Assembly: GCA_025800215.1 (NCBI GenBank)
Contig: JAOXSC010000221.1
Location: forward strand, 33,399-97,398
Source: Marinibacterium sp.
Lineage (GTDB): Bacteria; Pseudomonadota; Alphaproteobacteria; Rhodobacterales; Rhodobacteraceae
Length of the DNA stretch: 64,000 nucleotides
Reading direction: 5' to 3'
The notes beneath the pieces were generated by a model. That model ran no database searches. It saw only the letters and a list, made by a program, of their open reading frames with translations, and had not been told where the DNA came from. Both the position numbers and the translations under genes were made by a program. Below are positions 19,186-57,675 of the stretch, piece after piece (position 1 is the first letter of the stretch; each line of letters opens with the position of its first letter).

Positions 19186-19189
19186 CGCG

Positions 19190-19972: not shown

Positions 19973-20027
19973 ATGCCCGGCCTCCCCAACCGTTCCGCTG
20001 TCGCGGATTTGAATGACGTTCCTCATG

Positions 20028-20055: not shown

Positions 20056-20092
20056 TCAAGCCACCTGCCACTGAACCTTGCCCGGAGCGCGC

Positions 20093-20120
20093 GTTTTGCA
20101 TTACCGTTATCATGCAAAAC
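20093..20120. promoter_or_regulatory. Operator C2: GTTTTGCAT-N10-ATGCAAAAC
   Basis: A 9-bp exact inverted repeat with a 10-bp spacer, 21 bp before the rightward crotonase start. It contains TTTGCAT-N6-TATCAT, the same spaced motif as sites A and B read on the other strand. Confidence 0.6.
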
Positions 20121-20141
20121 CGTTGCCAGCAGGGCCCCGTC

Positions 20142-28435: not shown

Positions 28436-28459
28436 ATCTGGTCTCCGGCGTTTGAACTG

Positions 28460-30073
28460 TCAGGATCTGGCATCGGCCAGCATCATGCGGCTGGCTTTTT
28501 CGGCAATCATCATGGTGGGGCCATTGGTGTTGCCCGACACAAGTTCAGGCATGATCGAGCAATCGGCCACCCGCAGCCCGGCAATGCCGCGCAGCTTCAG
28601 CTCGGGCGTCACCACCGCATCAGGGCCCGGCCCCATGCGGCAGGTGCCCGACGGGTGATAGATCGACACCGCCGTGTCACGCGCCCAGCCCAGCAAATCC
28701 GCGGCGTCATCGCTGACACCGGGGCCGGGCCGCACTTCGCGCGCGATCCGCGCGCGCAGCGGCGCCATCGACGCGATGCGCCGGCCGATGCGGATCCCGT
28801 CCACGACCGTGGCGCAATCGGTGTCGGTGGCCAGGTAATTGGCCTCGATCACCGGGTGGGCGGATGGGTCGGCGCTGGCCAGACGGATCCGGCCCCGGCT
28901 TTCGGGGCGCAGCTGGCAGAAATTCATCGTGAAGGCCGGAATGGTCTCGGGCGCGCCGGCATCCACCGACAGCGGCTGGATCAGATACTGGATGTCGGGG
29001 GTTTCCAGCTCGGGGCGGGTGCGCAAGAACCCCACCGCCATGGCAGCAGGCATCGACATCGGGCCGCGACGGCCCAGGGCAAATTCCGCCGCGATCCCGG
29101 CCTTGCCGATGAGGGAATGCACCCGGTTGTTCACCGTGGGGCTGGTGCTTTCGAACACCAGCTTGTGCTGCAGATGATCCTGCAGCCCCTGCCCCACGCC
29201 CGGCAGATCGTGCTGCACCGCAATCCCGTGATCGGCCAGGTGATCGGCCGGGCCGATCCCCGACAGCATCAGCATCTGCGCCGACCCGATGGTGCCACCC
29301 GCCAGCACGGTTTCGCGCCGCGCCGTCACCGCGACCTGCCCCCCCGCCGCATCACGATAGATCAGCCCGGTGCAGCGCTGCCCGTCCAGCGTGACCCGTT
29401 CGACCAGCGCGCGGGTGATCACCCGCAGGTTCGGGCGCCGCCGCACCGGGTGCAGAAACGCCGAGGCCGCGCTTTCGCGCCAGCCGTTGCGCGTGGTGAT
29501 CCGGAAATAGGATGTGCCTTCCTGATCGGGGCCGTTGTAATCGGGGTTGCGGGCAAACCCGGCGGCTTCGGCCGCGCTCAGCCAGTCGTCACAGATCGGA
29601 TGGGTCATGCGCAGGTCCGAAATCCCCAGCTCGCCCTGTCGGCCAAGGCTGGGATCATCGGTGCTGCGCGCGTCCTCGAACGCTTCGAACAGGGGCCGCA
29701 CATCGTCCCAGCCCCAGCCCGGATTGCCAAGCTGCCGCCACCGGTCATAGTCGCGCGCCTGCCCGCGCACATACAACAACCCATTGAGCGATGACGACCC
29801 CCCCAGCATCTTGCCGCGCGGCCAGCCGATGGCGCGACCATTGAGGCCGGGATCCGGCGCGGTCTGATAGCCCCAGTTCACATCCGGGTTTCCGATCAGC
29901 CGGAAATACCCCACCGGGATGCGCACCCAGGGGTTGCTGTCGCGCCCGCCTGCCTCGATCAGAACAACCCGGTTGCGCGGATCCGCGCTCAGCCGGTTGG
30001 CCAGAACACAGCCCGCCGATCCCGCGCCCGCGATCACATAATCGGCGTCGATCTGTTGCATCCTAGCGCTCAT
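28460..30073 (-). CDS. GMC-family FAD oxidoreductase (choline/alcohol dehydrogenase-like)
   Basis: 537 residues. The N-terminus has VIAGAGSAGCVLANRLSADPRNRVVLIEAGG (dinucleotide fold, Glu for ribose) and GGSSSLNGLLYVRGQ (GMC signature 1). The C-terminal YHPSGTCRMGPGPDAVV and TNGPTMMIAEKA carry the catalytic His and Asn. It oxidises a primary or secondary alcohol and passes electrons to a quinone or other acceptor. The start overlaps the fumarylacetoacetase stop (ATGA), showing coupling in the operon. Confidence 0.92.
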   Translation of the reverse strand: MSARMQQIDADYVIAGAGSAGCVLANRLSADPRNRVVLIEAGGRDSNPWVRIPVGYFRLIGNPDVNWGYQTAPDPGLNGRAIGWPRGKMLGGSSSLNGLLYVRGQARDYDRWRQLGNPGWGWDDVRPLFEAFEDARSTDDPSLGRQGELGISDLRMTHPICDDWLSAAEAAGFARNPDYNGPDQEGTSYFRITTRNGWRESAASAFLHPVRRRPNLRVITRALVERVTLDGQRCTGLIYRDAAGGQVAVTARRETVLAGGTIGSAQMLMLSGIGPADHLADHGIAVQHDLPGVGQGLQDHLQHKLVFESTSPTVNNRVHSLIGKAGIAAEFALGRRGPMSMPAAMAVGFLRTRPELETPDIQYLIQPLSVDAGAPETIPAFTMNFCQLRPESRGRIRLASADPSAHPVIEANYLATDTDCATVVDGIRIGRRIASMAPLRARIAREVRPGPGVSDDAADLLGWARDTAVSIYHPSGTCRMGPGPDAVVTPELKLRGIAGLRVADCSIMPELVSGNTNGPTMMIAEKASRMMLADARS

Positions 30074-31332
30074 GTGGCGGGCCGGATCTGACCGGCGCAG
30101 GTGCCAAACCCCAGAGTGTAGTCGCCCGTGCAGCGCCCCTGAAACCCAAGCGTGTCGCCATCTTCGAGGAACTCGCGCAGCGCGCCATCCACCGCCAGCG
30201 GCGCGCGCCCGTCCTGCGTCAGTTCCAGCATGCAGCCCAGGCTGTCCGGCGTAAGGCCCGAAATCGTGCCCGAGCCCAGCAGGTCACCGCTGCGCATCGC
30301 GCAGCCGCAGGCCGTGTGATGGGCCATCTGCGCGGCTGCGGTGTAATAGAGATGCCGGCTGTTGGTGCGGCTGATCACCCGGCCCGCGCCGCCCTGCGTG
30401 GCCAGCCACACGTCGATCAGGATGTCATAGGCGTTGGGGCTGTCTTCGTGCAGATAGGGCAACAGCGGCGTCCGCCGCTCGGGAGGGTCCATGCGGAAGG
30501 GTTCAAGCGCTTCGGCCGTGACGATCCAGGGGCTGATCGTGGTGCCGAACGCCTTGGACTGAAACGGCCCCAGCGGCTGATATTCCCACAGCTGGATGTC
30601 ACGCGCCGACCAGTCATTGAGCAGCACAAAGCCAAAGATGGACGCCTGCGCCTGCGCCGTACTCAGCCGGGTGCCCATGGCAGATCCGGTACCGACAATG
30701 GCACCCAGTTCAACTTCGAAATCCAGCTTGGCCGATGGCGCAAACACCGGGGGCGCGTCCGGCGCAGGGCGGATCTGTCCGCAGGGCCGGGTGATCGGCG
30801 TGCCCGACACCACCACGGTTGATGCCCGCCCGTTATAGGCAATCGGCATGTGCAGCCAGTTGGGCACAAGCGCCGCCTTGTCGCCGCGGAAGATGCGCCC
30901 GACATTCATCGCGTGCTCATACGAGGCATAGAAATCGGTGAATTCGCTGACCCGAACCGGCAGGCGCATCTGCACCGCCCCCTGATCCATCAGCGGCGCG
31001 TCCGCGCGCAGGGTGTCATTGCCCGCAGCCAGCAGATCGCAAAGGGCACGCCGGGTGTCGGACCAGACCGGCTGGCCGAGGTCGAGAAACGGGTTCAGAA
31101 CGCCGCTGTCGAACACCGCCCTTTCGCCCCCCGGTCGCAGGGTGCCGCGCGCTTCAAGCACGGTCAGATCAAGGATCTGATCGCCAATCGCCACGCCGAT
31201 GTGATCGGCCCCGGACGGGTGCGCAAAGACCCCGTAGGGCAGGTTCTGGATCGGAAAATCGCTGCCTGCCACATTGGCGCTGTCGACCCAGCTGCGCAGG
31301 CCGGGGTCGTGTGTGGTGTTGAGATTGGTCAT
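30070..31332 (-). CDS. Fumarylacetoacetase-family hydrolase
   Basis: 420 residues with both the N-terminal beta-barrel (DFPIQNLPYGVFAHPS) and the C-terminal hydrolase fold, the full fumarylacetoacetase architecture. FTDFYASYEHAMNVGRIFR and LDFEVELGAIVG supply the metal-binding acids; LNDWSARDIQLWEYQPLGPFQSKAFGTTISPW is the catalytic core. The family cleaves the C-C bond of 4-fumarylacetoacetate in tyrosine and homogentisate breakdown. No homogentisate dioxygenase or maleylacetoacetate isomerase is beside it, so here it may cleave another beta-diketone. It sits between a crotonase and the GMC oxidoreductase gene in one operon. Confidence 0.88.
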   Translation of the reverse strand: MTNLNTTHDPGLRSWVDSANVAGSDFPIQNLPYGVFAHPSGADHIGVAIGDQILDLTVLEARGTLRPGGERAVFDSGVLNPFLDLGQPVWSDTRRALCDLLAAGNDTLRADAPLMDQGAVQMRLPVRVSEFTDFYASYEHAMNVGRIFRGDKAALVPNWLHMPIAYNGRASTVVVSGTPITRPCGQIRPAPDAPPVFAPSAKLDFEVELGAIVGTGSAMGTRLSTAQAQASIFGFVLLNDWSARDIQLWEYQPLGPFQSKAFGTTISPWIVTAEALEPFRMDPPERRTPLLPYLHEDSPNAYDILIDVWLATQGGAGRVISRTNSRHLYYTAAAQMAHHTACGCAMRSGDLLGSGTISGLTPDSLGCMLELTQDGRAPLAVDGALREFLEDGDTLGFQGRCTGDYTLGFGTCAGQIRPAT

Positions 31333-31385
31333 GAAGCGCCCTCCCCTGCGCGTCAGCCAGCCGATCTGGTTGGGATGCCCCCCGG

Positions 31386-32183
31386 TCAGGTGCCCTTGAA
31401 CTCATAAACCGGACGGTCGAGCCCCTTGTTGAACGCCTCGGTCGCCTTTTCGACGGCCATGGTCACGTCATCGGTCACCAGGATGTTGGGGATGTGCTCG
31501 AACATCTGCACATCCGCCGCAGGCACGCCACCGGCGGACCAGGCGTTCAGCATCATCTTGGTCGCCGCATGCGCCCGTGTGGCGCCGTTCGACAGGCTTT
31601 CGGCCACCGCATCCACCCGCGCGCGCAGCGCGTCATCGGCCACCACTTCGGCGATGATATTGAGCCTCAGCGCCTCGGGCGCGGGCAGGACTTCGGTCAG
31701 CATCACCAGCCGCGCCGCCACCGCACGCCCCGCCCGTTCGGCGATGCGCTGCGCGCCACCGGCCAGCGGAAAGACGGCAATCGTCGCTTCGGGGAACCGG
31801 AACCGCGCGCTTTCGGCGGCGATCACCAGATCCACATGCAGCGCCAGTTCGAACCCGAACCCCATCGCATCGCCATGGACCTCGGCGATGGTGGGCACGG
31901 GCAGGTTTTCCAGCGCGATCAACGCGCCATTGGACAGCTGCCAGCGTTCGCGGCGCTTCATATAGGTGTCGAATTCAGGCCATTCGCGGAAATCGCCCCC
32001 ACAGCAGAAATGATCCCCGGCCGAGCGGATCACCACCGCCCGCGCGGTCGATGCCGCCGCGGCCTTGACCGCTTCGCCCAGTTCAAAGGCAAACTGTCGG
32101 TTGCAGCGGTTCTGCGGCGGACGATTCAGGGTGATGATGCCGACATTGGCGTCTTGATGAAAGGTGATGAATTCGGGTGTCAT
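31386..32183 (-). CDS. Enoyl-CoA hydratase/isomerase (crotonase family)
   Basis: 265 residues. IITLNRPPQNRCNRQFAFELGEAV, then SAGDHFCCGGDFREWPEFD for the first oxyanion strand, EVHGDAMGFGFELALHVDLVIA for the second, and FPEATIAVFPLAGGAQRIAERAG with the Glu. Crotonases near fumarylacetoacetase-type hydrolases may act as C-C hydrolases or hydratases on ring-derived thioesters. It lies 53 bp upstream of the fumarylacetoacetase gene and 33 bp after the NTF2-like gene. Confidence 0.88.
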   Translation of the reverse strand: MTPEFITFHQDANVGIITLNRPPQNRCNRQFAFELGEAVKAAAASTARAVVIRSAGDHFCCGGDFREWPEFDTYMKRRERWQLSNGALIALENLPVPTIAEVHGDAMGFGFELALHVDLVIAAESARFRFPEATIAVFPLAGGAQRIAERAGRAVAARLVMLTEVLPAPEALRLNIIAEVVADDALRARVDAVAESLSNGATRAHAATKMMLNAWSAGGVPAADVQMFEHIPNILVTDDVTMAVEKATEAFNKGLDRPVYEFKGT

Positions 32184-32216
32184 GATGTGTCCTTTCGGGT
32201 CAATGCTGCGGCGCGA

Positions 32217-32675
32217 TCAGCGTGGCATGCGGCGGCGATGCCAGAGCGCGTCCAGCGTTTCGGCCTCGGTGCGGTCATTGCTCAGCCCGACAATGCGCCA
32301 GCCCTGTTCGAGCTTGCGCACGTCGAAATGGGTGGCGATGCGATGGATTTCGGTTTCGTCGGCGGCGCGGCGCGACCAGATCGCATCCAGACAACCCGAC
32401 ACTTCGTTATAAAGGGTCAGTTGCCAGTCCAGCGTCTTGGTGTGGCTGTACCCCCCCGCCTTGAGCGGCGCGTGCGTGGTGTTCAGCAGACCGGTCACCG
32501 CCTCCATATCCGTCAGCATGCCCTGCCCGAAGACCGACGCGGCAAACATCGGGACATTCCAATAGTCCAGAATGTCTTCGGCAGGCCGCTCGGACCGGCC
32601 GATGGCCACCCAGGTCTTGAAATAGCCGTCAAAGAACCAGCGCTCGAGCTCATCGGCGATCGCATCATAGCTCAT
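32217..32675 (-). CDS. NTF2-like/SnoaL-type protein
   Basis: 152 residues, a compact alpha+beta protein starting MSYDAIADELERWFFDGYFKTWVAIG, with KTLDWQLTLYNEV and IHRIATHFDVRKLEQGWRIVGLS strands. That pattern (three N-terminal helices, then curved sheet) fits the NTF2-like fold used by SnoaL cyclases, scytalone dehydratase, ketosteroid isomerase and ring-hydroxylase beta subunits. No catalytic motif is certain. It overlaps the hydrolase gene by 4 bp. Confidence 0.65.
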   Translation of the reverse strand: MSYDAIADELERWFFDGYFKTWVAIGRSERPAEDILDYWNVPMFAASVFGQGMLTDMEAVTGLLNTTHAPLKAGGYSHTKTLDWQLTLYNEVSGCLDAIWSRRAADETEIHRIATHFDVRKLEQGWRIVGLSNDRTEAETLDALWHRRRMPR

Positions 32676-33532
32676 GCCCGGTCCCCCAACACGCTCAGAA
32701 ACCCGGCCACGTGCTGTGCGGCCTCCTGCGGTTTTTCGGTATGCGGCCAGTGCCCCGCGCCTTGGATGTGGGCCATGCGCAGATCACCAAACCGCGTCCC
32801 GATCTCGTCGCGCAGATAGGTCTGGGTAAAGAACGTGTCATCCGATGACACCAGCAGCACCGGGGCGGTCACATCGGACGGGCCGGCGCCTGCGGGATGG
32901 CCCGTGGTCCAGGCCACGACCTGTTGCAGCGCCACATCCACCGGCGTGCGCAGACAGGTGGCCACCAGAACCGCCATGGCATCTTCGCTCGCCTCGGGGG
33001 CGAGGCGACGGCGGCCCTGATAGACCGATGCAGGATCCCGGTCGCGCGCACGCTTGTCAAAGATCGCGGCCATCTCGTCGCTGAGCGGATAGCCCGCCAG
33101 AGGTGCCGGGCAGAACAGGATCAGGCCCGCGCAGTCGGCCCCGAGGCCGCGCGCCACCAGTTCTGCGATCTGGCCGCCCATGCTCTGTCCCACGATCACC
33201 AGCTGCCCAACCGCGCGCAGATCAAGTTCTTCGACCAGATCCAGGATCGCGGCCGCGACCTGTTCGACAATCGGCGTGTCGCTTGCCTCATCGGCGCGCA
33301 GGGTGGTCTGATCGGCGGCCAACAGGCCCCACCCGTCCGCGCCGAGCGCATCGGCCAATGGCACCCAGCTGCCCGGACCGTCCATAAAACCATGGGCAAA
33401 GATCAGCACGCCTTTCGGGTCGGACGACGTCGGCTGGTACGCATAGCCCAGACCGGTTCTGGCCGTCTGCAGTGGCGCGAACGCCTCGGCCTGAGCGGGG
33501 GCCGCCGATGCGGCCCTGTCATTGCTGGTCAC
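32672..33532 (-). CDS. Alpha/beta hydrolase, first gene of the seven-gene operon
   Basis: 286 residues from GTG 33532, chosen because a GGGGGGAT ribosome-binding site lies just upstream; the longer frame to 33625 has only a TTG start inside the promoter region. ILIFAHGFMDGPGSW (oxyanion loop), VIVGQSMGGQIAEL (nucleophile elbow GQSMG), SSDDTFFTQTYL (acid) and GAGHWPHTEKP (His) give the full triad. It may cleave an ester or C-C bond. Transcription starts about 33640 (see promoter) and runs through to the sulfatase gene. Confidence 0.87.
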   Translation of the reverse strand: MTSNDRAASAAPAQAEAFAPLQTARTGLGYAYQPTSSDPKGVLIFAHGFMDGPGSWVPLADALGADGWGLLAADQTTLRADEASDTPIVEQVAAAILDLVEELDLRAVGQLVIVGQSMGGQIAELVARGLGADCAGLILFCPAPLAGYPLSDEMAAIFDKRARDRDPASVYQGRRRLAPEASEDAMAVLVATCLRTPVDVALQQVVAWTTGHPAGAGPSDVTAPVLLVSSDDTFFTQTYLRDEIGTRFGDLRMAHIQGAGHWPHTEKPQEAAQHVAGFLSVLGDRA

Positions 33533-33631
33533 GATGGATCCCCCCAAGTTGTCCCCCCCCAACGTTCCGCGCACGCCGGACCTGGGTCCGGCAGTGGCTC
33601 TGGGGTTCGCGGCCAGAGCGGTCAAAACCCC

Positions 33632-33674: not shown

Positions 33675-33724
33675 CATCCTCTATGATGGGTCGGGTCATT
33701 TTTTGCACACGAACGGATCGCAGG

Positions 33725-34318
33725 ATGCGGATTACAGAAGATTATCAGGCGCTTGGCGGCCCGCCCTGCCTGGATTTCATCGCCACGCTCCGGTCGCGCA
33801 CGGGGGCGGCAACCGAATTGCTGGACTGTCCTGACGCGCTGGCAGTGTGGATCAGCCTGTCGCCCTATGGGGCACATGTGGCCGGGCTCGGGATTTCAGA
33901 GGATGATCTGGCGCGGGCCATCACCCTGCGCGAAGCGGCCTATCGCGTCATTCAGGCCGCGCGCCAGCAGACCGCCCCCGATGCGGGCGATCTTGAGGTG
34001 CTGAACCGCGCCGCGCGCCTGCCCGACCTGACCCCGCAGGCGCGCATCCCCGACAGCGGGGCCGCGCTGTCGCTCAGCTGGCGCGACGATGCCGGGGTGT
34101 CGGCGGTGCTGTCGTCCATCGCGCGCGACACGATTGCGCTGGTGACGGGGTCGGATGTGGGCCGGGTCAAACCCTGCGCCAATCACAAATGCGAAAGGCT
34201 GTTCTTTGACGGCTCGCAGGCCAAGCGCCGCCGCTGGTGCTCGATGGAGCGCTGTGGCAATCAGGCAAAGCTGTCGCAATACCGCAGCCGCCACAGGTCC
34301 AAGACCACAGGCGACTGA
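33725..34318 (+). CDS. CGNR zinc-finger protein, putative transcriptional regulator
   Basis: 197 residues from ATG 33725; upstream ATGs at 33683/33686 fall in the likely promoter. The N-terminal LGGPPCLDFIATLRSRTG begins the ABATE domain usual in this family. The C-terminal VKPCANHKCERLFFDGSQAKRRRWCSMERCGN has the four Cys of the CGNR zinc finger, thought to bind DNA. It is divergent from the seven-gene operon starting at 33532, a regulator-target arrangement, and upstream of the SDR gene at 34430. Function in regulation is inferred. Confidence 0.82.
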   Translation: MRITEDYQALGGPPCLDFIATLRSRTGAATELLDCPDALAVWISLSPYGAHVAGLGISEDDLARAITLREAAYRVIQAARQQTAPDAGDLEVLNRAARLPDLTPQARIPDSGAALSLSWRDDAGVSAVLSSIARDTIALVTGSDVGRVKPCANHKCERLFFDGSQAKRRRWCSMERCGNQAKLSQYRSRHRSKTTGD

Positions 34319-34331: not shown

Positions 34332-34360
34332 TTGACGCAACCGCAACCGCTGTCTAGCAT
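34332..34360 (+). promoter_or_regulatory. Promoter of the SDR gene
   Basis: TTGACG (34332-34337), 17-bp spacer, TAGCAT (34355-34360). The operator begins 7 bp further on, the same geometry as at the other three GTTGC sites. Confidence 0.6.
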
Positions 34361-34367
34361 CCATCAT

Positions 34368-34381
34368 GTTGCCACAGCAAC
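34368..34381. promoter_or_regulatory. Operator E: GTTGC-CACA-GCAAC
   Basis: A perfect 5+4+5 palindrome at the predicted transcription start of the SDR gene. The identical 14-mer recurs at 39967 and 41939, and a variant at 39819. Confidence 0.72.
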
Positions 34382-34429
34382 TTAATGGGCCAGGGGCACC
34401 CCCTCGCCCGCTTTGGGGAGGGGACAGGA

Positions 34430-35200
34430 TTGGATCTGGGACTTTCCGGCCGGGTGGCGTTGATCACCGGGGCCGGGCGCGGCATCGGCCGCGCCGAAGC
34501 CACCGCACTGGCCGCCGAAGGCGCCTTCATCGCGATCAACGACATCGACCCTGACAGCGCCGAACGCTGCGCACAGGACCTTGCCCAGACGGGGGCGCAA
34601 GCCATGGCCGTCGCCGGGGACGTCACCGACCCCGGCTGCGTGGACAGGATCATTGCGCGCTGCCACGACCGGTTCGGGCGGCTTGATGTGCTGGTCAACA
34701 ATGCCGGTCTGGGGGGGCGTTTTCTGGGGCGCAAAGTCACCGAAATGGCGTTTGACGACTGGGACCGGGTCATTCGCAGCCACATGTACGGCACATTCCT
34801 GTGCACCCGGGCCGCCGCACCCTTGATGCAGGATCAGGGGTTCGGTCGCATCATCAACACATCATCCATCCACTATACCGGCGGCGGGCGCACCGGCATT
34901 TCCAACTACAGCGCGGCCAAGGCCGGGATCGCGGGCTTTACCCGCACCGTCGCGAAAGAGCTTGGCCCACAGGGCATCACCGTCAACGCCATCGCGCCGG
35001 GGTTTGTCGCCACCGATCTGATCGCGGGCTTTTCCGACGACGCCATGCAGCGGATCCGCGACCAGAACCCCAAACGGCGCTGCTGCACCCCGGACGAGCT
35101 GGGCGCGCTGGTGGCGTTTCTGGCCTCGGCCCAGGCGGATTTCATCAACGGTGCCGTTGTCAGCATCGACGGTGGCCGCCGCGAATTTGTCTGGGATTGA
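34430..35200 (+). CDS. SDR-family oxidoreductase
   Basis: 256 residues from TTG 34430, preceded by GGGGAGGGGACAGG; the ATG at 34385 touches the operator and has no ribosome-binding site. All classical elements are seen: ITGAGRGIGRAEATALA, VNNAGLGGRF, NTSSIHYTGGG for the Ser, YSAAK for Tyr and Lys, and IDGGRREFVWD at the end. It interconverts an alcohol and a ketone with NAD(P). It is a single-gene unit under operator E, ending at a double hairpin, and is part of the Baeyer-Villiger regulon. Confidence 0.9.
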   Translation: MDLGLSGRVALITGAGRGIGRAEATALAAEGAFIAINDIDPDSAERCAQDLAQTGAQAMAVAGDVTDPGCVDRIIARCHDRFGRLDVLVNNAGLGGRFLGRKVTEMAFDDWDRVIRSHMYGTFLCTRAAAPLMQDQGFGRIINTSSIHYTGGGRTGISNYSAAKAGIAGFTRTVAKELGPQGITVNAIAPGFVATDLIAGFSDDAMQRIRDQNPKRRCCTPDELGALVAFLASAQADFINGAVVSIDGGRREFVWD

Positions 35201-35201
35201 T

Positions 35202-35252
35202 GGGGCCCCTCCGGCCCCGGCGTGACCGCATGGCGGCCAGCGCTTGGCCGCC
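35202..35252. terminator. Two consecutive hairpins between convergent SDR and MarR genes
   Basis: GGGGCC-CCTCC-GGCCCC (35202-35218) and GGCGGCCA-GCGCT-TGGCCGCC (35232-35252). There is no strong T-run on either side. Position between converging genes supports a termination role. Confidence 0.5.
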
Positions 35253-35254
35253 GG

Positions 35255-35779
35255 TCAGGATTCCGCTTCGCCCCGGCGATTGACCTGCGGCAGCGCCGCG
35301 TGCAGCCGATTGAGCATGTCGATCAGCTGATGCACCTCATCTTCGGACAGCGCGCTCAGAAGACGCCGCTCGCGTTCGAGCGCGGCGGGCAGGATGGCAT
35401 CATGCAAGGCCTCTCCACTCGGGCTCAGCGACAGGATCTGGCTGCGGCCGTCCGTCTTGTCGGGGGCCAGCGTGACCAGACCCTTGGCATGCATGTTCTT
35501 GACGCAGCGACTGACCGGCCCCTTGTCAAGACCGATCACCTCGACAATGCGGTTGGCCTTGATCCCCGGTTCGATCGCCAGCAGCGCAATGATGCGCCAT
35601 TCGGTGATCCCGATGTCAAAATGATCCCGGAATTCGGCCGATGCCCCGCGCCCCAGCTTGTTGGCGATCCAGTTCAGCAGCGACGGAACATGCGTGTCCA
35701 GATCCAGCGTCGCGCGGCCATTCACGATCCTGGGCGTGGCAGGCGGGTTCGGCACAGGCCGGTCTTCGGGTTCGCTCAT
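35255..35779 (-). CDS. MarR-family transcriptional regulator
   Basis: 174 residues from ATG 35779. The winged helix runs DIGITEWRIIALLAIEPGIKANRIVEVIGLDKGPVSRCVKNMHAKGLVTLAPDKTDGRSQILSLSP, a clear MarR domain with the conserved wing Asp-Arg (TDGRSQ). Helices at both ends form the dimer interface. It follows the TRAP/SDR genes in the same direction with a 96-bp gap, so it may be the last gene of the operon under operator H. MarR proteins bind short palindromes and release them on binding phenolic or similar ligands, making this the prime candidate for GTTGC-N4-GCAAC. Confidence 0.88.
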   Translation of the reverse strand: MSEPEDRPVPNPPATPRIVNGRATLDLDTHVPSLLNWIANKLGRGASAEFRDHFDIGITEWRIIALLAIEPGIKANRIVEVIGLDKGPVSRCVKNMHAKGLVTLAPDKTDGRSQILSLSPSGEALHDAILPAALERERRLLSALSEDEVHQLIDMLNRLHAALPQVNRRGEAES

Positions 35780-35875
35780 GTCATCCCGGCCTTGGACAAG
35801 GCCGTCCCTCTGGGTCACGCACCGCCCCTGAACGGCAGCTTCGGGCCCGAACCATAGGGGGCCGCGCCGGGTCGC

Positions 35876-36618
35876 TCAACCCGCCATGTACATGCCGCCA
35901 TTGGCATGCAGCGCCGCACCGGTGACAAAGCCCGCCTGCGGACCCGCCAGAAACAGCACCGCACGGGCAATTTCATCGGCGGTGCCAAGCCGACCCAACG
36001 GCGTGGCCGCGATCAGCGCCGTGCGCCGGTCATCCGCCATCGCCCCAAGCATCGCGGTGTCCACCAGACCCGGTGACACCGCGTTGACCCGAGTGCGCGG
36101 CGCCAGCTCGCGTGCAAGGCTGCGGGTCAGCGCAAGCACCCCCCTTTGGCCGCGGCATAGGCGCTGTGTCCGGGGCTGCCCTGATGACCCGAATGCGACG
36201 CGATGTTCACCACTGCACTGCCCTGTGACAGCAGATCCTGCAGCGCGTGAATTGTGTGAAACACCCCATCGAGGTTGACCGCCATGCAACGGCGCCAGCT
36301 GGCCGCGTCCAGCGCGCCCAGCGGGCGATGTTCGTATAGTCCCGCACCATTGATCAGCACATCCACCCGCCCATGCGCCGCGTCACATTGCGCCGCCAGC
36401 GCCAGCGCGTCGACCGGGTCGGCCACATCCTGACGCAGCAGCAGCGGATCCGGCCCGTCCGGCAGGGTCGCGGCCTGCGCGGCCAGGCGGTCGGTGTTCA
36501 CATCGCTCAGCACCAGCCGCGCACCGGCATCCGCCGCCAGCCGCGCGACTGCAAAGGGGATTTCACCCGCAGCCCCGGTGATCACGATCACCCGCCCATC
36601 AAGGTCCGTTTCAGTCAT
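35876..36618 (-). pseudogene. SDR-family oxidoreductase interrupted by a frameshift at a G6 run
   Basis: The first part, from ATG 36618 (GGAGG upstream), reads DGRVIVITGAAGEIPFAVAR, VLINGAGLYEHRP and NIASHSGHQGSPGHSAYAAAKGG, then goes out of frame (CLR, stop). The second part, in another frame, continues exactly as expected: VLALTRSLARELAPRTRVNAVSPGLVDTAMLG to TGAALHANGGMYMAG. One extra G in the run at 36139-36144 would restore a normal SDR of about 248 residues with Ser-Tyr-Lys intact. This is a recent mutation, a phase-variable tract or a sequencing error. It follows the TRAP large permease gene. Confidence 0.85.
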
Positions 36619-36629
36619 CGCCGCCTCCG

Positions 36630-37955
36630 TCACCAGCTTGGCCCGCTCAGCCGTTCGGGCAGCCAGGTGGCGATTTCAGGAAACAGCATCACCAGCACCA
36701 GCACCACAAGCTGCGCTCCGATAAAGGGCAGAACCCCCCGGTACATGTGCCCAAGCCGGATCTCGGGCGGGGCAATCGCGCGCAGATAGAAGATCGACGG
36801 CGCCATGGGCGGGGTCAAATAGCTGGTCTGCAGCACGATCAGGAACGCGATGCAGAACCAGATCGGATCGAACCCATAACCCGTCACAATGGGCATCGAG
36901 ATCGGGATCAGGATGAGCACCACCGAAATCAGATCCAGCAGGAAGCCCGCGACAAAGGCCACGAACAGGATTGCCGCGATCGCGCCCCAGCCCGAAATGC
37001 CAAATTCGGTCAGCAGCGTGCGCACCCCATTCAGCCCTCCGCTGGCAAAGAACACGCCCGCGAACATGTTGCCGCCCAGAACGATCAGCAGGATCATCGC
37101 GGTGATCGCGGCCGTCTGCTTGAGCGCGGCCCAGACCACACGCGGATTGAACCGGCGATACATGATCGACATGACCACGGTCCCGGCCACACCGCAGGCG
37201 GCGGCTTCGGTCGGGGTGGCGATGCCCATCAGGATCGTGCCCAGCACCAGAAAGATCAGGATCACCGGCGGCAGCAGAGCGACCCCCGTCACCTGCAGCT
37301 TGCGCCAAAGCGGCATGGGCGGGCCATCATCGGCCACAACCGGGGCCAGGTCGCGGTTCCACATGCAGATCCCGATCACGTAAAGCGCAAAGAGCAGCGC
37401 CATGATCAGCCCCGGCAACAGCAGCCCCGCAAAGAGGCTGCCGACCGAGATATTGGCCACCGGGCCCAGCACCACCACCGTGATGGATGGCGGGATGACC
37501 GTCCCCAGCGACCCGCTGGCGCAGACGGTGCCGGAAATCAGGCTCTTGTCGTATTTGTGCTTGAGCATGATCGGCACCACCAGCAGCCCGATCACCGTTT
37601 CGGTCGCGCCGACCACACCGCTGGCCGCGGCAAAGATTGCACCGATGCCGATGGCCCCGACGCCCAGACCACCGGGCAGCTTGCGGGTCCAGATATGGAC
37701 CGCGTCGAACAGGCGCTCGGCGATGCCCGACCGTTCAAGCAGCGATCCCATCAGGATGAACAGCGGCACCGCAGCCAGCACCGAATGGGTGGTCACGTCG
37801 TCGATCTTGGAGATGATCTGATACACCACCCCATCGCCGAACTGCATCAGGCCAAAGCCCACCGCCACAAGGATCATCGACAGCGCGATCGGAAACCCCA
37901 GAAGGATCAGCACCATCAGGGCGGGGAACATCATGAAACCGACATAGGCGCTCAT
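36630..37955 (-). CDS. TRAP transporter large permease (DctM family), second system
   Basis: 441 residues from ATG 37955, which overlaps the small-permease stop (ATGA). About twelve hydrophobic segments. DctM motifs: GGLGVGAIGIGAIFAAASGVVGATETVIG, GSLGTVIPPSITVVVLG and LQTSYLTPPMAPSIFYLR. It forms the channel unit of the second TRAP system. The SDR relic starts 12 bp after its stop codon. Confidence 0.92.
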   Translation of the reverse strand: MSAYVGFMMFPALMVLILLGFPIALSMILVAVGFGLMQFGDGVVYQIISKIDDVTTHSVLAAVPLFILMGSLLERSGIAERLFDAVHIWTRKLPGGLGVGAIGIGAIFAAASGVVGATETVIGLLVVPIMLKHKYDKSLISGTVCASGSLGTVIPPSITVVVLGPVANISVGSLFAGLLLPGLIMALLFALYVIGICMWNRDLAPVVADDGPPMPLWRKLQVTGVALLPPVILIFLVLGTILMGIATPTEAAACGVAGTVVMSIMYRRFNPRVVWAALKQTAAITAMILLIVLGGNMFAGVFFASGGLNGVRTLLTEFGISGWGAIAAILFVAFVAGFLLDLISVVLILIPISMPIVTGYGFDPIWFCIAFLIVLQTSYLTPPMAPSIFYLRAIAPPEIRLGHMYRGVLPFIGAQLVVLVLVMLFPEIATWLPERLSGPSW

Positions 37956-38464
37956 GACGCGCCCCCATAGGCCAGACCGGTGCGCAGCGACACCAGCGCC
38001 TTGAGCCATTCCGCCAGCACCTGCAGCGCCAGCAGGGCAAAGCCCAGACACCACACCGCCTTGAAGGGCCAGATCACCGGGTTCCAGGCCGACACCCCGG
38101 CCACCTCGCCCCGGTGAAAGGCCTCGACCGCGGCCAGACCCACATACCACGACATCCAGACCAGCACCGGCAGCAGCGCGCCATAGCACAGCACGTTGAT
38201 CAGCGCCTGCAGCCGGACCGGAAGGCGGGGCAGGATGAGGTCGACATTGACATGCTGCTTGATCTTCAGCGCAAAGCTCATCGCCATCAGGAACACCGAC
38301 CCCATCAGCATATAGGTCAGGTCATAGGCCCAGGCCGTCGGCGCGCGCAGCACATAGCGCGCGATCACCTCGTAAAGCAGCACCAGCACCAGTGGCACCA
38401 CCAACAGCGCCGAGATCCGGCCCGAGACATCCGCCGGGCGTTCAAGCAAATCTATCAGGGACAT
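37952..38464 (-). CDS. TRAP transporter small permease (DctQ family), second system
   Basis: 170 residues. Four hydrophobic stretches: ISALLVVPLVLVLLYEVIARYVL, DLTYMLMGSVFLMAMSFAL, ALINVLCYGALLPVLVWMSWYV and PFKAVWCLGFALLALQVL. KIKQHVNVDLILPRLP lies between the second and third, the usual DctQ pattern. It overlaps the large-permease gene and is separated from the binding-protein gene by 161 bp containing a GC-rich hairpin. Confidence 0.88.
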   Translation of the reverse strand: MSLIDLLERPADVSGRISALLVVPLVLVLLYEVIARYVLRAPTAWAYDLTYMLMGSVFLMAMSFALKIKQHVNVDLILPRLPVRLQALINVLCYGALLPVLVWMSWYVGLAAVEAFHRGEVAGVSAWNPVIWPFKAVWCLGFALLALQVLAEWLKALVSLRTGLAYGGAS

Positions 38465-38520
38465 GTAAGCTTCCTTGCCCGAAGGCAGATCATGAGTTCA
38501 GGATGTGGGATGCGACAGGC

Positions 38521-38547
38521 CGGGCCGCTTGCGGCAGCACCGGCCCG
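38521..38547 (-). promoter_or_regulatory. Intercistronic hairpin in the second TRAP operon
   Basis: CGGGCCG (38521-38527) pairs with CGGCCCG (38541-38547). It lies between the binding-protein gene and the small-permease gene, the same position as the hairpin at 5181-5200 in the first TRAP operon. Confidence 0.4.
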
Positions 38548-38625
38548 CCGGGGGGGATGTCGGGGTACCAGCGGCCCCGCGCGCGCGGACCAGCCAATGC
38601 GCACGGGGCGGGACCGGGGGCCGCG

Positions 38626-39693
38626 TTACTGCCCCAGGCTGCCGATCTGGAACCGGTATTCAGGCCAGACCGCCAGCTTGGCCTTGAAGGCCCGCTGCGA
38701 GTCGAGCGCGCGCTTGAACCATTCGTTTTCGGCCGCGATCTCGTCTTCCCATTCGTGGGTGACCTGCTTGATCCGCTCAAGCACGGCATCATCCACGCGC
38801 ACGATCTCGTTCGGGCCCTCGGCAAAATCCTGGAACGCACTCAGATCCGACGCCGATGCCAGCACCCAGGTTTCGAACAATGTCTGCTTGGCCGCCATGC
38901 GGATGCGATCGCGATCAAGCTCGCTCAGCGCGTCCCAGGCATCGGGGTTGAACATGCATTCGAATGACCCGCCGGACAGATCAAGCCCCGGCGTGATGAT
39001 GTATTGTGCCACGTCCTGGAACCCGGTCGCCCGGTTGATCTCCGGGCTGCCCCATTCGACCGCATCAATCACGTTGCGCTCAAGCGCCTCGTAGACTTCG
39101 GCCCCCGGAATGACCATCGTGGCCGCGCCCAGGCGCGATGCGATTTCCGCAAACGCCCCGGATGTGCGCAGCTTGAGCCCCTGGAAATCCTCAAGCGTCT
39201 GAATGCGCTTGTGCGAATGAAACCCGGTGCTGGTGCCGCCAATCGTGCAGGGCAGCGACACGACGCCGAAATTCTCGCGCCGGAACTCTTCCCAGATCTC
39301 GAGCCCGCCCCCGGCATAGTACCAGAGGATCAGCTCTTCGGGGGTCATGCCAAAGGGGTGACCGGCAAACAGCACCGTGGTTTCGTCCAGGCCCCAGTCA
39401 TAGCCCGGCCAGTTGTGGCCGGCCTCGGCCACGCCCTTGCTGACCCCTTCGGTCACCTTGAGCTGGCTGTAAAGCGTGCCGCCCGGATAGGGCGTGATCA
39501 CCACGCGCCCGTCGGTCAGGGCCTCGACATTGTCGACAAACAGCTGGACGTCGCGCTCCAGCCACGGGCCGCCACCATAAGGCGTCGCCATCTTCCAGTC
39601 ATGCTCTGCCGCGCTGACGCTGGCGGTTGCGGCAAACAATCCAAGGGCGGCCGCGCCCGCAGCAACTGCGGCGCGTTTGATTGAAATCGTCAT
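38626..39693 (-). CDS. TRAP transporter substrate-binding protein (DctP family), second system
   Basis: 355 residues from ATG 39693 with a strong GGGAGGAG site. The signal peptide IKRAAVAAGAAALGLFAATASVSAAEHDW is clear, with cleavage near SAA-EH. The mature part has DFQGLKLRTSGAFAEIASRLGA, containing the conserved ligand-binding Arg, and AVEWGSPEINRATGFQDVAQYI, typical of the DctP subgroup for larger organic or keto acids. It has its own promoter with operator H, so uptake is co-regulated with the monooxygenase module. Confidence 0.92.
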   Translation of the reverse strand: MTISIKRAAVAAGAAALGLFAATASVSAAEHDWKMATPYGGGPWLERDVQLFVDNVEALTDGRVVITPYPGGTLYSQLKVTEGVSKGVAEAGHNWPGYDWGLDETTVLFAGHPFGMTPEELILWYYAGGGLEIWEEFRRENFGVVSLPCTIGGTSTGFHSHKRIQTLEDFQGLKLRTSGAFAEIASRLGAATMVIPGAEVYEALERNVIDAVEWGSPEINRATGFQDVAQYIITPGLDLSGGSFECMFNPDAWDALSELDRDRIRMAAKQTLFETWVLASASDLSAFQDFAEGPNEIVRVDDAVLERIKQVTHEWEDEIAAENEWFKRALDSQRAFKAKLAVWPEYRFQIGSLGQ

Positions 39694-39818
39694 AAACTCC
39701 TCCCAACAGAGTATTCTGTGTGACGTGCGGACCGGGCGGCAAACACCCTTTGCAACCGGGCTGACCCGGATCACAAAGGCTCCTCCTGCTTGCGGAACGG
39801 CCCCTTGCTGCACTTCTG

Positions 39819-39832
39819 GTTGCCGTAGCAAC
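39819..39832. promoter_or_regulatory. Operator H: GTTGC-CGTA-GCAAC
   Basis: Palindrome of the same arms as operators E, F and G with a different 4-bp centre. It begins 7 bp after the -10 of the leftward TRAP promoter. Confidence 0.7.
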
Positions 39833-39839
39833 TACTGTA

Positions 39840-39868
39840 TCGTTAGCCACGCCCCCCCGATGCGTCAA
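39840..39868 (-). promoter_or_regulatory. Promoter of the second TRAP operon
   Basis: Minus strand TTGACG (39863-39868), 17 bp, TAACGA (39840-39845), then 7 bp to operator H. Confidence 0.6.
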
Positions 39869-39932
39869 GGAATTTAAATACATCCCAAAGACCGGTTTTT
39901 GCGGGGGCCGGACATGCGACAGCACAAATGAA

Positions 39933-39961
39933 TTGCCCGCGCGCCGCCCCCCGCGTTATGC
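39933..39961 (+). promoter_or_regulatory. Promoter of the alcohol dehydrogenase/hydrolase pair
   Basis: TTGCCC (39933-39938), 17 bp, TTATGC (39956-39961), then 5 bp to operator F. The -35 is weaker than at the sister promoters. Confidence 0.5.
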
Positions 39962-39966
39962 ATCTG

Positions 39967-39980
39967 GTTGCCACAGCAAC
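39967..39980. promoter_or_regulatory. Operator F: GTTGC-CACA-GCAAC
   Basis: 14-mer identical to operators E and G, 40 bp before the dehydrogenase start. Confidence 0.72.
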
Positions 39981-40020
39981 ATACTGAAGGGGCACGGCAT
40001 CGCCCCAAAAGCGAGGATCC

Positions 40021-41133
40021 ATGACAGATGATTTCAGGGCCGCCGTCCTGCACAACACGCATGAACCGCTGGTGATCGAGCCGGTTCAGCTCGCTCCGCT
40101 GGGGCCGCGCGACGTCAAGGTTCGAATCAGGGCGACCGGGCTGTGCCACACCGATCTGGAAGTGATCGAAGGATCCCTGCGCCTGCCGCTGCCCATCGTT
40201 CTGGGGCACGAAGCCGCCGGGATCGTCGAAGCGATCGGCCCCGACGCGCAGGGGGTTGCGGTGGGCGATCACGTGATCCTGTCGTGGAACCCCAAATGCG
40301 GCGACTGCTTTTATTGCGACCACGATCTGCCGATCCTCTGCGACACCTACCAGAAAAACACGCCCGCCGCCTTTGCCTTTGACCGCCAGCCCAAGGCCCG
40401 TCTGCGCCATGGCGGGGATCTGCACCAGTTGATGTATCTGGGCACCTTCGGGGACTACTGCGTGGTGCAGGACCAGCAGGCCATTCCGATCCCGCGCGAC
40501 ATGCCCTTTGACGCCGCAGCGCTGATCGGCTGCGGCGTGATGACGGGCGTGGGCGCTGCGCTGAACGTCGCGCAGGTGCGGCCGGGCAGCTCGGCCATGG
40601 TGATCGGCTGCGGGGCGGTGGGGCTGGCGGCCATCCAGGGCGTGGCGCTTGGGGGGGCACAGGACATCATTGCCGTCGACCTCAATGACCAGCGGCTGAA
40701 GGCCGCGCAGCAGATGGGCGCCACCCGGCTGGTCAACCCCCGGACCGACGCCGCCGATGCGGTGGCACGGGCCCTGACCGGCGGGCGCGGCGTTGACGTG
40801 GTGCTGGAATCGGCCGGCAACGAAGCCGCGTTCCGCCTAAGCATGGAAGCGGTGCGCCCCGGCGGTCAGGTGATCTGGCTGGGCAAGACGGATGTGGATC
40901 AGGATGTGGCCTTTCGCTGGGGATCGCTGATGCAGGAAAAGCGCATTCGCCGGTCCAGCTATGGCGGCGCCCGCCCGCGCCGGGATTTTCCGTTCCTGTG
41001 CCGGGCCTATCTGGACGGGCGGCTGAATCTGGATGGGCTGATCACCCAGCGGATCACGCTGGATCAGATCAATGACGGGTTCGACGCGCTGCGCCGTGGC
41101 GACGCGATTCGCAGCGTCATCCTGTTCGACTGA
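40021..41133 (+). CDS. Zinc-dependent alcohol dehydrogenase (class III-like MDR)
   Basis: 370 residues. GLCHTDLEVIEG (catalytic Cys), VLGHEAAGIVEAIG (His, Glu) and the structural zinc loop NPKCGDCFYCDHDLPILCDTY are present. GCGVMTGVGAALNVAQVRPGSS holds the third catalytic-zinc Cys. VIGCGAVGLAAIQGV is the coenzyme fold and VDLN the NAD-selecting Asp. It likely oxidises a cyclic or secondary alcohol to the ketone used by the monooxygenase (inference from co-regulation). The stop overlaps the hydrolase start by one base (TGATG). Confidence 0.9.
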   Translation: MTDDFRAAVLHNTHEPLVIEPVQLAPLGPRDVKVRIRATGLCHTDLEVIEGSLRLPLPIVLGHEAAGIVEAIGPDAQGVAVGDHVILSWNPKCGDCFYCDHDLPILCDTYQKNTPAAFAFDRQPKARLRHGGDLHQLMYLGTFGDYCVVQDQQAIPIPRDMPFDAAALIGCGVMTGVGAALNVAQVRPGSSAMVIGCGAVGLAAIQGVALGGAQDIIAVDLNDQRLKAAQQMGATRLVNPRTDAADAVARALTGGRGVDVVLESAGNEAAFRLSMEAVRPGGQVIWLGKTDVDQDVAFRWGSLMQEKRIRRSSYGGARPRRDFPFLCRAYLDGRLNLDGLITQRITLDQINDGFDALRRGDAIRSVILFD

Positions 41134-41906
41134 TGCGGATCGACACCGCCGACGGCCCGCTTGACTGTCCTGCAGCCGGCACCGGTGCCGCGTCCCGGCC
41201 GACGCTGGTTCTGCTGCACGGGATCCAGGGGACGGCATCGGTCTGGTCCGATGTGATGGCGGACCTTGCCACCGATCACCGCGTGATCGCGCCCAACCTG
41301 CGCGGACGCGCGGGGTCGCTGCGCCCCGCCACCACCGACGCCTATCAGATCGCAGGTTTCACCCGCGATCTGCACGCGGTGCTGGCCGCGATCCCCGGCC
41401 CCGTGGCTCTGGTGGGTTGGAGCATGGGCTGTTTCGTCGCCTTCGACTATCTGCAGACCCACGGCCCCGCGCGGCTGAGCGCGCTGGCGCTGATTTCGGG
41501 CAGCCCATGCCTGACCGCCACCGCCCCGCCCGCGCGCTGGTTTGTCGGCACGACCCAGGATGACCTGATGGCCGAAGCCGCCGCCCGCGCCCACCGGCTG
41601 GCGCTGCGCGACACCGCAAGTGATCTGGCCGTGGCGGGGACCTGGCTTGGGCTGCAGGGCGTCGACTATGGCCCCTTGCTGCCACGGATCACCCTGCCCA
41701 CGCTGGTCCTGCATGGCGAGCGAGATCCCGAATGCCCGCTGCCCCATGCCATGTTGATGGCCCGGCAGATCCCGGCGGCAGAGGTCGAGATCTGGCCGGG
41801 CTGCGGCCATGTCCCCATGGCACATGACCCCGCCCGCCTGGCCCGCAGCCTGCGCCGCTTTCTGACCACCGCCGGGGGGTACGCACCGCCCCCCACGGCA
41901 TCTTGA
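41133..41906 (+). CDS. Alpha/beta hydrolase (lactonase/esterase candidate)
   Basis: 257 residues. LVLLHGIQGTASVW is the oxyanion loop and VALVGWSMGCFVAFDYL the nucleophile elbow (GWSMG). LVLHGERDPECPLPHAM provides the Asp and WPGCGHVPMAHDP the His. It is translationally coupled to the alcohol dehydrogenase and stands upstream of the Baeyer-Villiger monooxygenase, the context of ester or lactone hydrolases that open the product of ketone oxidation. Confidence 0.85.
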   Translation: MRIDTADGPLDCPAAGTGAASRPTLVLLHGIQGTASVWSDVMADLATDHRVIAPNLRGRAGSLRPATTDAYQIAGFTRDLHAVLAAIPGPVALVGWSMGCFVAFDYLQTHGPARLSALALISGSPCLTATAPPARWFVGTTQDDLMAEAAARAHRLALRDTASDLAVAGTWLGLQGVDYGPLLPRITLPTLVLHGERDPECPLPHAMLMARQIPAAEVEIWPGCGHVPMAHDPARLARSLRRFLTTAGGYAPPPTAS

Positions 41907-41931
41907 CGGGCTGTCGCAAAGGCGGCATAAC
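41903..41931 (+). promoter_or_regulatory. Promoter of the Baeyer-Villiger monooxygenase gene
   Basis: TTGACG (41903-41908), 17 bp, CATAAC (41926-41931), then 7 bp to operator G. The -35 overlaps the end of the hydrolase gene. Confidence 0.55.
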
Positions 41932-41938
41932 CCATATA

Positions 41939-41952
41939 GTTGCCACAGCAAC
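41939..41952. promoter_or_regulatory. Operator G: GTTGC-CACA-GCAAC
   Basis: 14-mer identical to operators E and F, placed at the predicted start of transcription. The mRNA leader to ATG 42081 would be about 140 bases. Confidence 0.72.
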
Positions 41953-42080: not shown

Positions 42081-43580
42081 ATGAAAGACGCATCATCACA
42101 GGGATCGCTTGACCACATCACCCAGCCGCTGGATGTGCTGATCGTGGGCGCAGGCATTTCGGGCATCGCCGCGGCCAGTTACCTGCGCATGCACCGCCCC
42201 GATGACCGTTTTGCCATTGTCGATCTCATGGACAGTTTCGGCGGCACCTGGAAAACCCACACCTATCCCGGCATCCGATCCGACAGTGATCTTTATACCT
42301 TTGGCTACAGCTTCAAACCCTGGACCGGCAAACCCATCGCCACCGGGGCCGAGATCCTGGACTATCTGGGTGAAACCATCGCTGAAAACGGGCTGGCCGA
42401 GCACATCCACTATGGCTGGCGCGTCCTGTCCGCCAGCTGGAGCACCCCGGACGCGCTCTGGACCTTGACCCTGCAGGATGTCGCATCAGGCCGCGAACAG
42501 CGGCTGAGCACCCGGTTCCTCTGGATGTGCCAAGGCTATTACGATCACAAGCAGGGCTATACCCCCGACTGGGACGGGATCGACGATTTTCAGGGCGAGA
42601 TCATCCACCCCCAGACCTGGCCCGCCGATTTCGACGGGACAGGCAAGCACATGACCGTGATCGGATCGGGGGCCACGGCCGCCACGCTGGTGCCCAATGT
42701 GGCCGACATGGTCGATCACGTCACCATGCTGCAACGCTCGCCCACCTATTTCCTGGCGCTTCCCAATGTCGAAGACACCGCCGATTTCCTGCGCAAGCTG
42801 GACGTGCCCGAAGCGTGGGTCCATGACATCGCCCGGCGCAACATCCTCTACAATCTCGAAGCCTTCCGCAAACGCTGTGTCGAAGACCCCGACACCGTCA
42901 AGGCCGAGCTGATCGGTGATCTGCGCCGGCTGGTGGGCGATGACTATGATCTCGACACCCATTTCACGCCCTCCTACCCGCCCGGCCGCCAGCGCATCGC
43001 GCGGATTTCGGATGGCGACATGTTCCGCGTCGTTGCCGATGGGCAAGCGTCGGTGGTGACCGACCGGATTGACCGCTTTGTTCCCGAAGGGATCAAGCTG
43101 CAATCGGGCGAGGTCCTGAAGACCGATGTGGTGGTCACCGCCACCGGGTTCGAGCTTTGCGCCTTTGGCGATGTGGCGTTCGACATCGACGGGGCGCCGC
43201 TGGATTTCCACGACACGGTCGGATACCGGTCGATGATGTTCACCGGCGTGCCGAACATGGTCTGGATCATGGGCTATTTCCGGGCCTCGTGGACGCTGCG
43301 GGCCGAACTGATCGCCAGCTTCGTCATGCGGCTGCTCGATCACATGGAGCAGACGAACAAACGCTCGGTCGAGCCGCAACTGCGCCCGCAGGATCAGGAC
43401 ATGCCGATCCTCGACTGGGCGGACGAAGCCGACTTCAACCCCGGATACCTGCTGCGCGGCCAGCACAAGCTGCCCAAGCGCGGCACCACCAGCGACTGGA
43501 AACTGCAGCAGGATTACTGGGTCGAAAAGCCCGAATTCGACGCCATCGACTTGACCGACCCGGTGTTCCGCTACGGCTGA
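42081..43580 (+). CDS. Flavin-dependent Baeyer-Villiger-type monooxygenase
   Basis: 499 residues from ATG 42081, preceded by AAGGAG; the longer frame to 41940 overlaps the operator. Two Rossmann motifs are present: IVGAGISGIAAASYL (FAD, residues 22-36) and VIGSGATAATLVP (NADPH, about 194-206). Between them is FQGEIIHPQTWP (170-181), an exact match to the type I Baeyer-Villiger fingerprint FxGxxxHxxxWP. DSFGGTWKTHTYPGIRSDSD is the usual FAD loop. Such enzymes insert oxygen next to a ketone to give an ester or lactone, or oxidise heteroatoms. It is its own transcription unit under operator G. Confidence 0.92.
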   Translation: MKDASSQGSLDHITQPLDVLIVGAGISGIAAASYLRMHRPDDRFAIVDLMDSFGGTWKTHTYPGIRSDSDLYTFGYSFKPWTGKPIATGAEILDYLGETIAENGLAEHIHYGWRVLSASWSTPDALWTLTLQDVASGREQRLSTRFLWMCQGYYDHKQGYTPDWDGIDDFQGEIIHPQTWPADFDGTGKHMTVIGSGATAATLVPNVADMVDHVTMLQRSPTYFLALPNVEDTADFLRKLDVPEAWVHDIARRNILYNLEAFRKRCVEDPDTVKAELIGDLRRLVGDDYDLDTHFTPSYPPGRQRIARISDGDMFRVVADGQASVVTDRIDRFVPEGIKLQSGEVLKTDVVVTATGFELCAFGDVAFDIDGAPLDFHDTVGYRSMMFTGVPNMVWIMGYFRASWTLRAELIASFVMRLLDHMEQTNKRSVEPQLRPQDQDMPILDWADEADFNPGYLLRGQHKLPKRGTTSDWKLQQDYWVEKPEFDAIDLTDPVFRYG

Positions 43581-57660: not shown

Positions 57661-57675
57661 GACGCCCCCAAAGGC

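Follow-up and report, generated by a model that had tools for sequence, protein, structure and literature searches.

A palindrome at four predicted promoters of a Marinibacterium catabolic gene cluster as candidate operator of a MarR-family repressor

The stretch of DNA examined here, referred to throughout as the window, comprises 64,000 nt of contig JAOXSC010000221.1 of Marinibacterium sp., and contains a cluster of catabolic genes (Table 1) in which the palindrome GTTGC-N4-GCAAC is present in four copies, together with a gene for a MarR-family regulator that is predicted to bind them.

The palindrome and the genes behind it

A pattern scan of the window returned four exact copies of the palindrome, all within 34368-41952 and at the positions reported in the original prediction (34368, 39819, 39967 and 41939); each of the remaining matches in the window carries two mismatches. 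The genes assigned to these sites were also as described: an SDR dehydrogenase lies behind the first (O1), a TRAP transporter behind the second (O2), an alcohol dehydrogenase (ADH) and a hydrolase behind the third (O3), and a Baeyer-Villiger monooxygenase (BVMO) behind the fourth (O4). O2, which reads leftward, precedes dctP, dctQ, dctM, a second SDR gene with a broken reading frame (SDR2) and marR, so that marR comes after the TRAP genes and SDR2, reads in their direction and stands behind one of the four sites, as had been claimed.

The extent to which the palindrome is confined to the cluster was assessed in the whole assembly (3.63 Mb in 228 contigs, with a completeness of 83%), where six copies were found, four of them in the cluster, compared with three for a control pattern read backwards. 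The two stray copies (C1:28020 and C118:28487) are both situated inside open reading frames (ORFs). The form GTTGCCACAGCAAC is present three times in the assembly and only in the cluster. Dinucleotide shuffling of the window (300 shuffles) gave a mean of 0.13 palindromes and a maximum of 3, and the Poisson probability of four sites in 7.6 kb is 1e-11 if the background is taken from the two strays, or 1e-9 if it is taken from all six copies.

Examination of the sequences ahead of the palindromes revealed that at three of the four sites (34368, +; 39819, -; 41939, +) the hexamer TTGACG starts exactly 36 bp upstream of the operator, in the arrangement TTGACG-17-(-10-like hexamer)-7-operator, while the site at 39967 has TTGCCC-17-TTATGC-5-operator. 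When 60-mers were drawn at random from the window, a hexamer common to three of four at one offset was obtained in 2 of 20000 draws. The -35 element and its distance to the operator are convincing, and the rest of the layout is plausible. Placement of the operator at the predicted +1 makes repression a reasonable expectation, one that rests on unmapped start points and weak -10 boxes.

Table 1. Predicted features of the cluster, in window coordinates.
Feature	Position	Strand	Remarks
SDR promoter (predicted), TTGACG-17-TAGCAT	34332..34360	+	sequence reading; passes promoter scan
Operator O1, GTTGCCACAGCAAC	34368..34381	+	pattern scan
SDR dehydrogenase	34430..35200	+	behind O1; ORF from 34385, TTG at 34430 the likelier start
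MarR-family regulator, 173 aa	35255..35776	-	predicted owner of the operators; downstream of TRAP genes
Second SDR gene (SDR2)	35876..36633	-	reading frame broken
TRAP transporter DctM	36630..37955	-	
TRAP transporter DctQ	37952..38464	-	
TRAP transporter DctP	38626..39693	-	
Operator O2, GTTGCTACGGCAAC, read leftward	39819..39832	-	pattern scan
TRAP promoter (predicted), TTGACG-17-TAACGA	39840..39868	- (leftward)	sequence reading; weak -10, not in scan
Promoter before O3 (predicted), TTGCCC-17-TTATGC	39933..39961	+	sequence reading; weak -10, not in scan
Operator O3, GTTGCCACAGCAAC	39967..39980	+	pattern scan
Zinc alcohol dehydrogenase	40021..41133	+	behind O3
Alpha/beta hydrolase	41133..41906	+	
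Promoter before O4 (predicted), TTGACG-17-CATAAC	41903..41931	+	sequence reading; not in scan
Operator O4, GTTGCCACAGCAAC	41939..41952	+	pattern scan
Baeyer-Villiger-type flavin monooxygenase	42081..43580	+	behind O4; fingerprint FQGEIIHPQTWP at residue 170

The TTG start listed for the first SDR gene is preferred because a purine-rich stretch lies ahead of it. SDR2 is split over two overlapping frames near a G run (~36140), which reflects either an assembly error or a real frameshift. Type I BVMOs are characterised by the fingerprint FxGxxxHxxxW(P/D), and the enzyme encoded here, which also has dinucleotide-binding motifs at residues 23 (GAGISG) and 195 (GSGATA), is of this type; it has PDB matches to cyclohexanone monooxygenases over the first ~230 residues.

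Occurrence of the palindrome beside MarR relatives

The window MarR protein scores above the cut-offs of two MarR winged-helix domains (PF12802, 47.6 bits against 27; PF01047, 27.2 against 24.6), and its AlphaFold2 model, with a mean pLDDT of 89.9, has MarR proteins as top PDB matches. The closest solved structure is 3nrv, a MarR/EmrR-family protein of Acinetobacter sp. ADP1 (sequence E 3.7e-22; fold match at 33% identity). The family trait of a palindromic operator at target promoters is observed here also, the link to the regulator's own gene being via the TRAP promoter only. Relatives at E <= 1e-20 number 1056 proteins, not all of one group. None of the 12 listed NCBIfam equivalogs for named MarR proteins (Saro_0803, BilQ, HpaR, MarR and others) is matched over its cut-off, the best being Saro_0803 at 44.7 bits versus a cut-off of 200.

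The surroundings of MarR relatives were examined in a scan of one genome per species (84,980 species), conducted with an alignment of 40 relatives, from which the best 80 of 303 confirmed stretches, mostly from Bradyrhizobium and up to 20 kb each, were analysed by counting every 5-mer palindrome with spacers of 0 to 12. The MarR proteins of these loci are 47-56% identical to that of the window. Among all half-sites and spacings, GTTGC with spacer 4 ranks first, being present in 73 of the 80 loci, against a median of 1 when the same half-site is counted at other spacings. Since the 80 loci are closely related, a balanced set of 39 loci was built by hand from the window, 14 of the 80 loci, five of six plasmid loci, and 19 of 30 distinct places derived from genome searches at the level of the family (295 genomes), the order (390) and the phylum (398). 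Eleven of the 30 places were omitted, of which nine belong to a single genus and carry the site without exception, and two are without it. The palindrome again ranks first in the balanced set, with 11 of 39 loci having a copy no more than 3 kb from marR (-5/+7 kb for the window), against a mean of 0.67 for the other spacings. Over the wider span of -5/+7 kb around marR the exact site is found in 14 of the 39, in one of them (L073) only far away.

A looser form, GTTG-N6-CAAC, is present within 3 kb in eight of the 25 balanced loci that have no exact site, L131 with TTAGTTGCGGTGTCAACTAA being one of them. In more distant relatives, AGTTG-N6-CAACT-type palindromes are observed near marR (L093 2500 and 6943; L131 9715; L130, L139 and L144), and could possibly represent drift of the operator code. 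The family relative L008 is without the site, and the TTGC-N4-GCAA of L009 falls in coding sequence. A tree of the 39 MarR proteins gave no firm placement of a sister to the window protein; measured along the tree its closest entries are L043, L014 and L127, and the site is present in two of these three. Tandem pairs of operators 19-23 bp apart were noted at L043 (11808/11828), L045 (5709/5729), L074 (11807/11827), L127 (10556/10576) and L142 (9641/9660 and 10819/10842), a spacing of about two helical turns that suggests two dimers may sit side by side.

The genes accompanying the palindrome vary between relatives. In the family genome G259, GTTGCTATAGCAAC (L143 5270) is followed, all in one direction, by genes for DctP (5325), DctQ, DctM, a P450, a 2Fe-2S ferredoxin and MarR, repeating the window design. 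In G378 an exact site (L138 6856) lies 65 bp ahead of a gene encoding a GCV_T domain (Pfam), a domain also present in folate-dependent aromatic O-demethylases such as LigM, and a near-site, GTTGCAATGTCAAC, lies ahead of dctP. In G530 two tandem site pairs flank marR, and a nearby fumarylacetoacetase-like protein is 52% identical to that of the window. On the Acinetobacter plasmid pXBB1-8, sites are positioned between marR and genes annotated in the record as a VanB-type reductase, on one side, and an aldehyde dehydrogenase on the other. Across these relatives the targets change and MarR stays.

The BVMO was used as a corresponding anchor. Among 389 other genomes of the order, 12 contain relatives of it, at 13 loci, the nearest being 68% identical. 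The exact site is absent within 1.5 kb of all 13, and when larger stretches were taken around six of them, plus one 12-kb neighbour stretch, these contained neither an exact site nor a MarR relative. Footprinting by this target gene gave no positive support for the operator, and the lack of the site at BVMO loci devoid of MarR indicates that the code goes with MarR and not with the BVMO.

Comparison with characterised MarR systems places the operator among familiar ones. In E. coli K-12 the core TTGC-N4-GCAA, a parallel absent from the original prediction, occurs twice in 52 bp before marR, against 0.03 expected in the 1-kb stretch, and none of 200 shuffles reaches two. E. coli MarR is described as binding two sites upstream of marR, one between the -35 and -10 elements and one near the translation start (PMC3920692), and by our own reading the TTGC-N4-GCAA pair would correspond to those sites. 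The window operator consists of this core with one base added per side, and is accordingly better regarded as a putative operator of the classical MarR type, ordinary rather than new. The two systems differ in that E. coli MarR controls marRAB as opposed to a catabolic cluster, whereas in the window one longer code (GTTGC/GCAAC) is present at four promoters; the recognition helices also differ, with DLGALTR in E. coli MarR and DKGPVSR in the window protein. Catabolic parallels are provided by DesR of Sphingobium sp. SYK-6, described as a repressor of the MarR type that controls an aromatic O-demethylation regulon and has similar inverted repeats in several promoters including its own (PMC6888825), and by Saro_0803 of Novosphingobium, a MarR-like regulator whose inverted repeat is reported to lie at the -10 element of an oxygenase gene (PMC10046596). 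The repeats differ from GTTGC-N4-GCAAC, being GTTTGTGTCACATAC and GTTTGTGTAACATAC for DesR and GCAATA-N6-TATTGC for Saro_0803. No report of a GTTGC-N4-GCAAC operator was recognised in literature searches limited to open-licence papers.

Interpretation and alternatives

The four palindromes are likely to be the operators of the cluster MarR protein, which would repress the SDR, TRAP-SDR-marR, ADH-hydrolase and BVMO transcripts together. Both the regulon and MarR as the candidate regulator had been proposed in the original prediction, and are supported by the leading enrichment of the palindrome around MarR relatives although the neighbouring genes differ. Judged from sequence, the best reading is that MarR acts locally, as an autoregulated repressor of the catabolic cluster in which it is encoded. 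A MarR dimer would set one recognition helix into each half-site and, once bound, would cover the start point predicted immediately after the -10, stopping RNA polymerase there or slightly beyond. Uptake (TRAP), oxidation (ADH, SDR and BVMO) and ester cleavage (hydrolase) would then be kept off until a pathway compound releases MarR. The releasing ligand may be a pathway substrate or intermediate, perhaps imported by the TRAP transporter; from the BVMO one might guess at a cyclic or aromatic ketone. Should marR be transcribed from the TRAP promoter, release would also increase repressor production, and the system would be shut off again when the compound has been consumed. The mechanism is that of textbook MarR control, and the protein and its regulon are a new case of a familiar bacterial switch. 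The assignment provides a DNA code for a MarR group in which no characterised member was found, plus a regulon of four transcripts. With such a code, regulons located near clusters of oxygenase and transporter genes could be predicted in many genomes, and identification of its ligand could open the use of the MarR protein as a sensor.

Several findings weigh against repression of all four transcripts by MarR. The -10 boxes match TATAAT at 4, 2, 1 and 4 of six positions, and a strict promoter scan passes only the first of the four promoters (34332..34360), a scan of the region having found 2 promoters versus 1.4 expected. For these reasons the 'identical layout' of the original prediction was overstated, its 17-bp spacers and 5-7 bp gap being borne out. 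The marR gene itself is not directly preceded by an operator, and it is assumed to be co-transcribed with the TRAP genes across the 100 bp that separate it from SDR2. The MarR relatives closest in sequence (60-81% identical, P0002-P0007) stand outside the site counts. In the -5/+7 kb around marR, the exact site is lacking at 25 of the 39 balanced loci, including all six Burkholderiales-clade relatives (L016, L017, L039, L054, L081 and L129) and the best-scoring family relative, G221, and the DKGPVSR motif is also found in the site-less relatives L014, L042 and L073. The nearest BVMO relative (G519, 68%) has a different palindrome, GTTGGCGGGCCAAC, ~210 bp before the BVMO gene, with no MarR relative in the stretch. 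Finally, GC-only palindromes recur in the window as often or more: GCGCG-N10-CGCGC is present seven times within 7 kb (13222-20231), probably owing to the composition of that GC-rich stretch, and the half-sites CGCGC, GCGGC and GCGCG with N4 have 4-5 copies each.

The recurrence of GC-only palindromes raises the possibility that the four copies are the product of chance or sequence bias and have no function, which is extremely improbable in view of the Poisson values given above, the location of all four ahead of gene starts and the independent recurrence beside relatives. Some MarR-family proteins activate transcription, and the unmapped start points and weak -10 boxes would accommodate a MarR protein that binds the palindromes with an activating or mixed effect, and not with repression of all four transcripts. 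This is unlikely, since at three of the sites a distance of 36 bp from the first base of TTGACG puts the beginning of the operator at the predicted start point, a position suited to blocking polymerase as opposed to recruiting it.

The palindrome might also be read by a protein other than MarR. The original prediction named as second candidate a CGNR zinc-finger protein (33683-34318) with ABATE and CGNR domains, the gene for which lies directly upstream of O1 and has a promoter-like site of its own at 33660. Relatives (E <= 1e-15) were found in only two of 294 other family genomes, and the exact palindrome is absent within 1.5 kb of both, the sole loose match being inside a tRNA gene; with only two relatives this comparison is a weak test. 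The site-carrying relative loci were all found through MarR and none through CGNR, and the CGNR protein is disfavoured as reader of the operator, a role we regard as very unlikely. A slightly lower likelihood still is attached to a regulator encoded outside the cluster, for which the incomplete assembly and the LysR types in the window at 46729 and 53889 leave room, but which sits poorly with the reappearance of the palindrome next to MarR relatives whose lineages are distant and whose neighbouring genes differ.

Antisense arrangement in relatives, and genomic setting

The more unusual observation was made at relative loci, not in the window. The marR-P450 loci of Bradyrhizobium, Rhodopseudomonas and Methylobacterium share GTTGC-N4-GCAAC and are distinguished from the window by P450 and ferredoxin-reductase genes in place of BVMO, ADH and TRAP, the P450 being presumably CYP199A-like, and by an operator located beyond the 3' end of marR. 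This placement, no more than 2.5 kb away and with a divergent P450 on the other side, is found in 70 of the 80 loci; of the other ten, seven are without an exact site and three (L017, L073 and L084) have one 1.6 to 8 kb away. A P450 transcript originating at the operator would therefore run antisense through marR, as at L013 (8676-10640) and L043 (8519-11841), where marR lies antisense between operator and P450; at the latter, from Methylobacterium, a ferredoxin-reductase-like gene is situated between operator and marR. The arrangement resembles a noncontiguous operon, and no clear promoter was made out in it. At L073 and L084, both from Bradyrhizobium and without a P450 match, the operator is missing at that place, and an exact site is present elsewhere in a different conserved setting.

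A second exact GTTGC-N4-GCAAC was observed 1.6-10 kb from marR in six Bradyrhizobium loci (L015 2343, L026 156, L035 2271, L063 255, L073 6879 and L084 8394), where its setting is conserved and has a TATAAT-like box just ahead.

The pathways beside the palindrome include BVMO and ADH in the window, and P450, VanAB-like and GCV_T-domain genes elsewhere. It is conceivable, though we hold it rather doubtful, that a single portable MarR/GTTGC-N4-GCAAC cassette has been placed on unrelated catabolic pathways across alpha- and gammaproteobacteria with its DNA code unchanged, and that the antisense wiring in Bradyrhizobium and Methylobacterium would make derepression self-reinforcing.

Within the window, the minus-strand genes to the left of the cluster (27005-33625) encode an aldehyde dehydrogenase, a GMC oxidoreductase, the fumarylacetoacetase-like protein, an enoyl-CoA hydratase, a DUF6841 protein and a hydrolase, and the window scan found no GTTGC-N4-GCAAC at them. 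The cluster is probably located on a plasmid, as indicated by ParB-like and ParA-like genes at 54899-58506 with TTACCCGTGGGTAA inside each (55095 and 56297), TTACCCGCGGGTAA ahead of the ParA gene (57390), and an adjacent gene for a possible replication protein. A phage-integrase-family gene (59148-60218) and an IS240-type transposase gene (63061-63804) near the end of the window fit a mobile setting.

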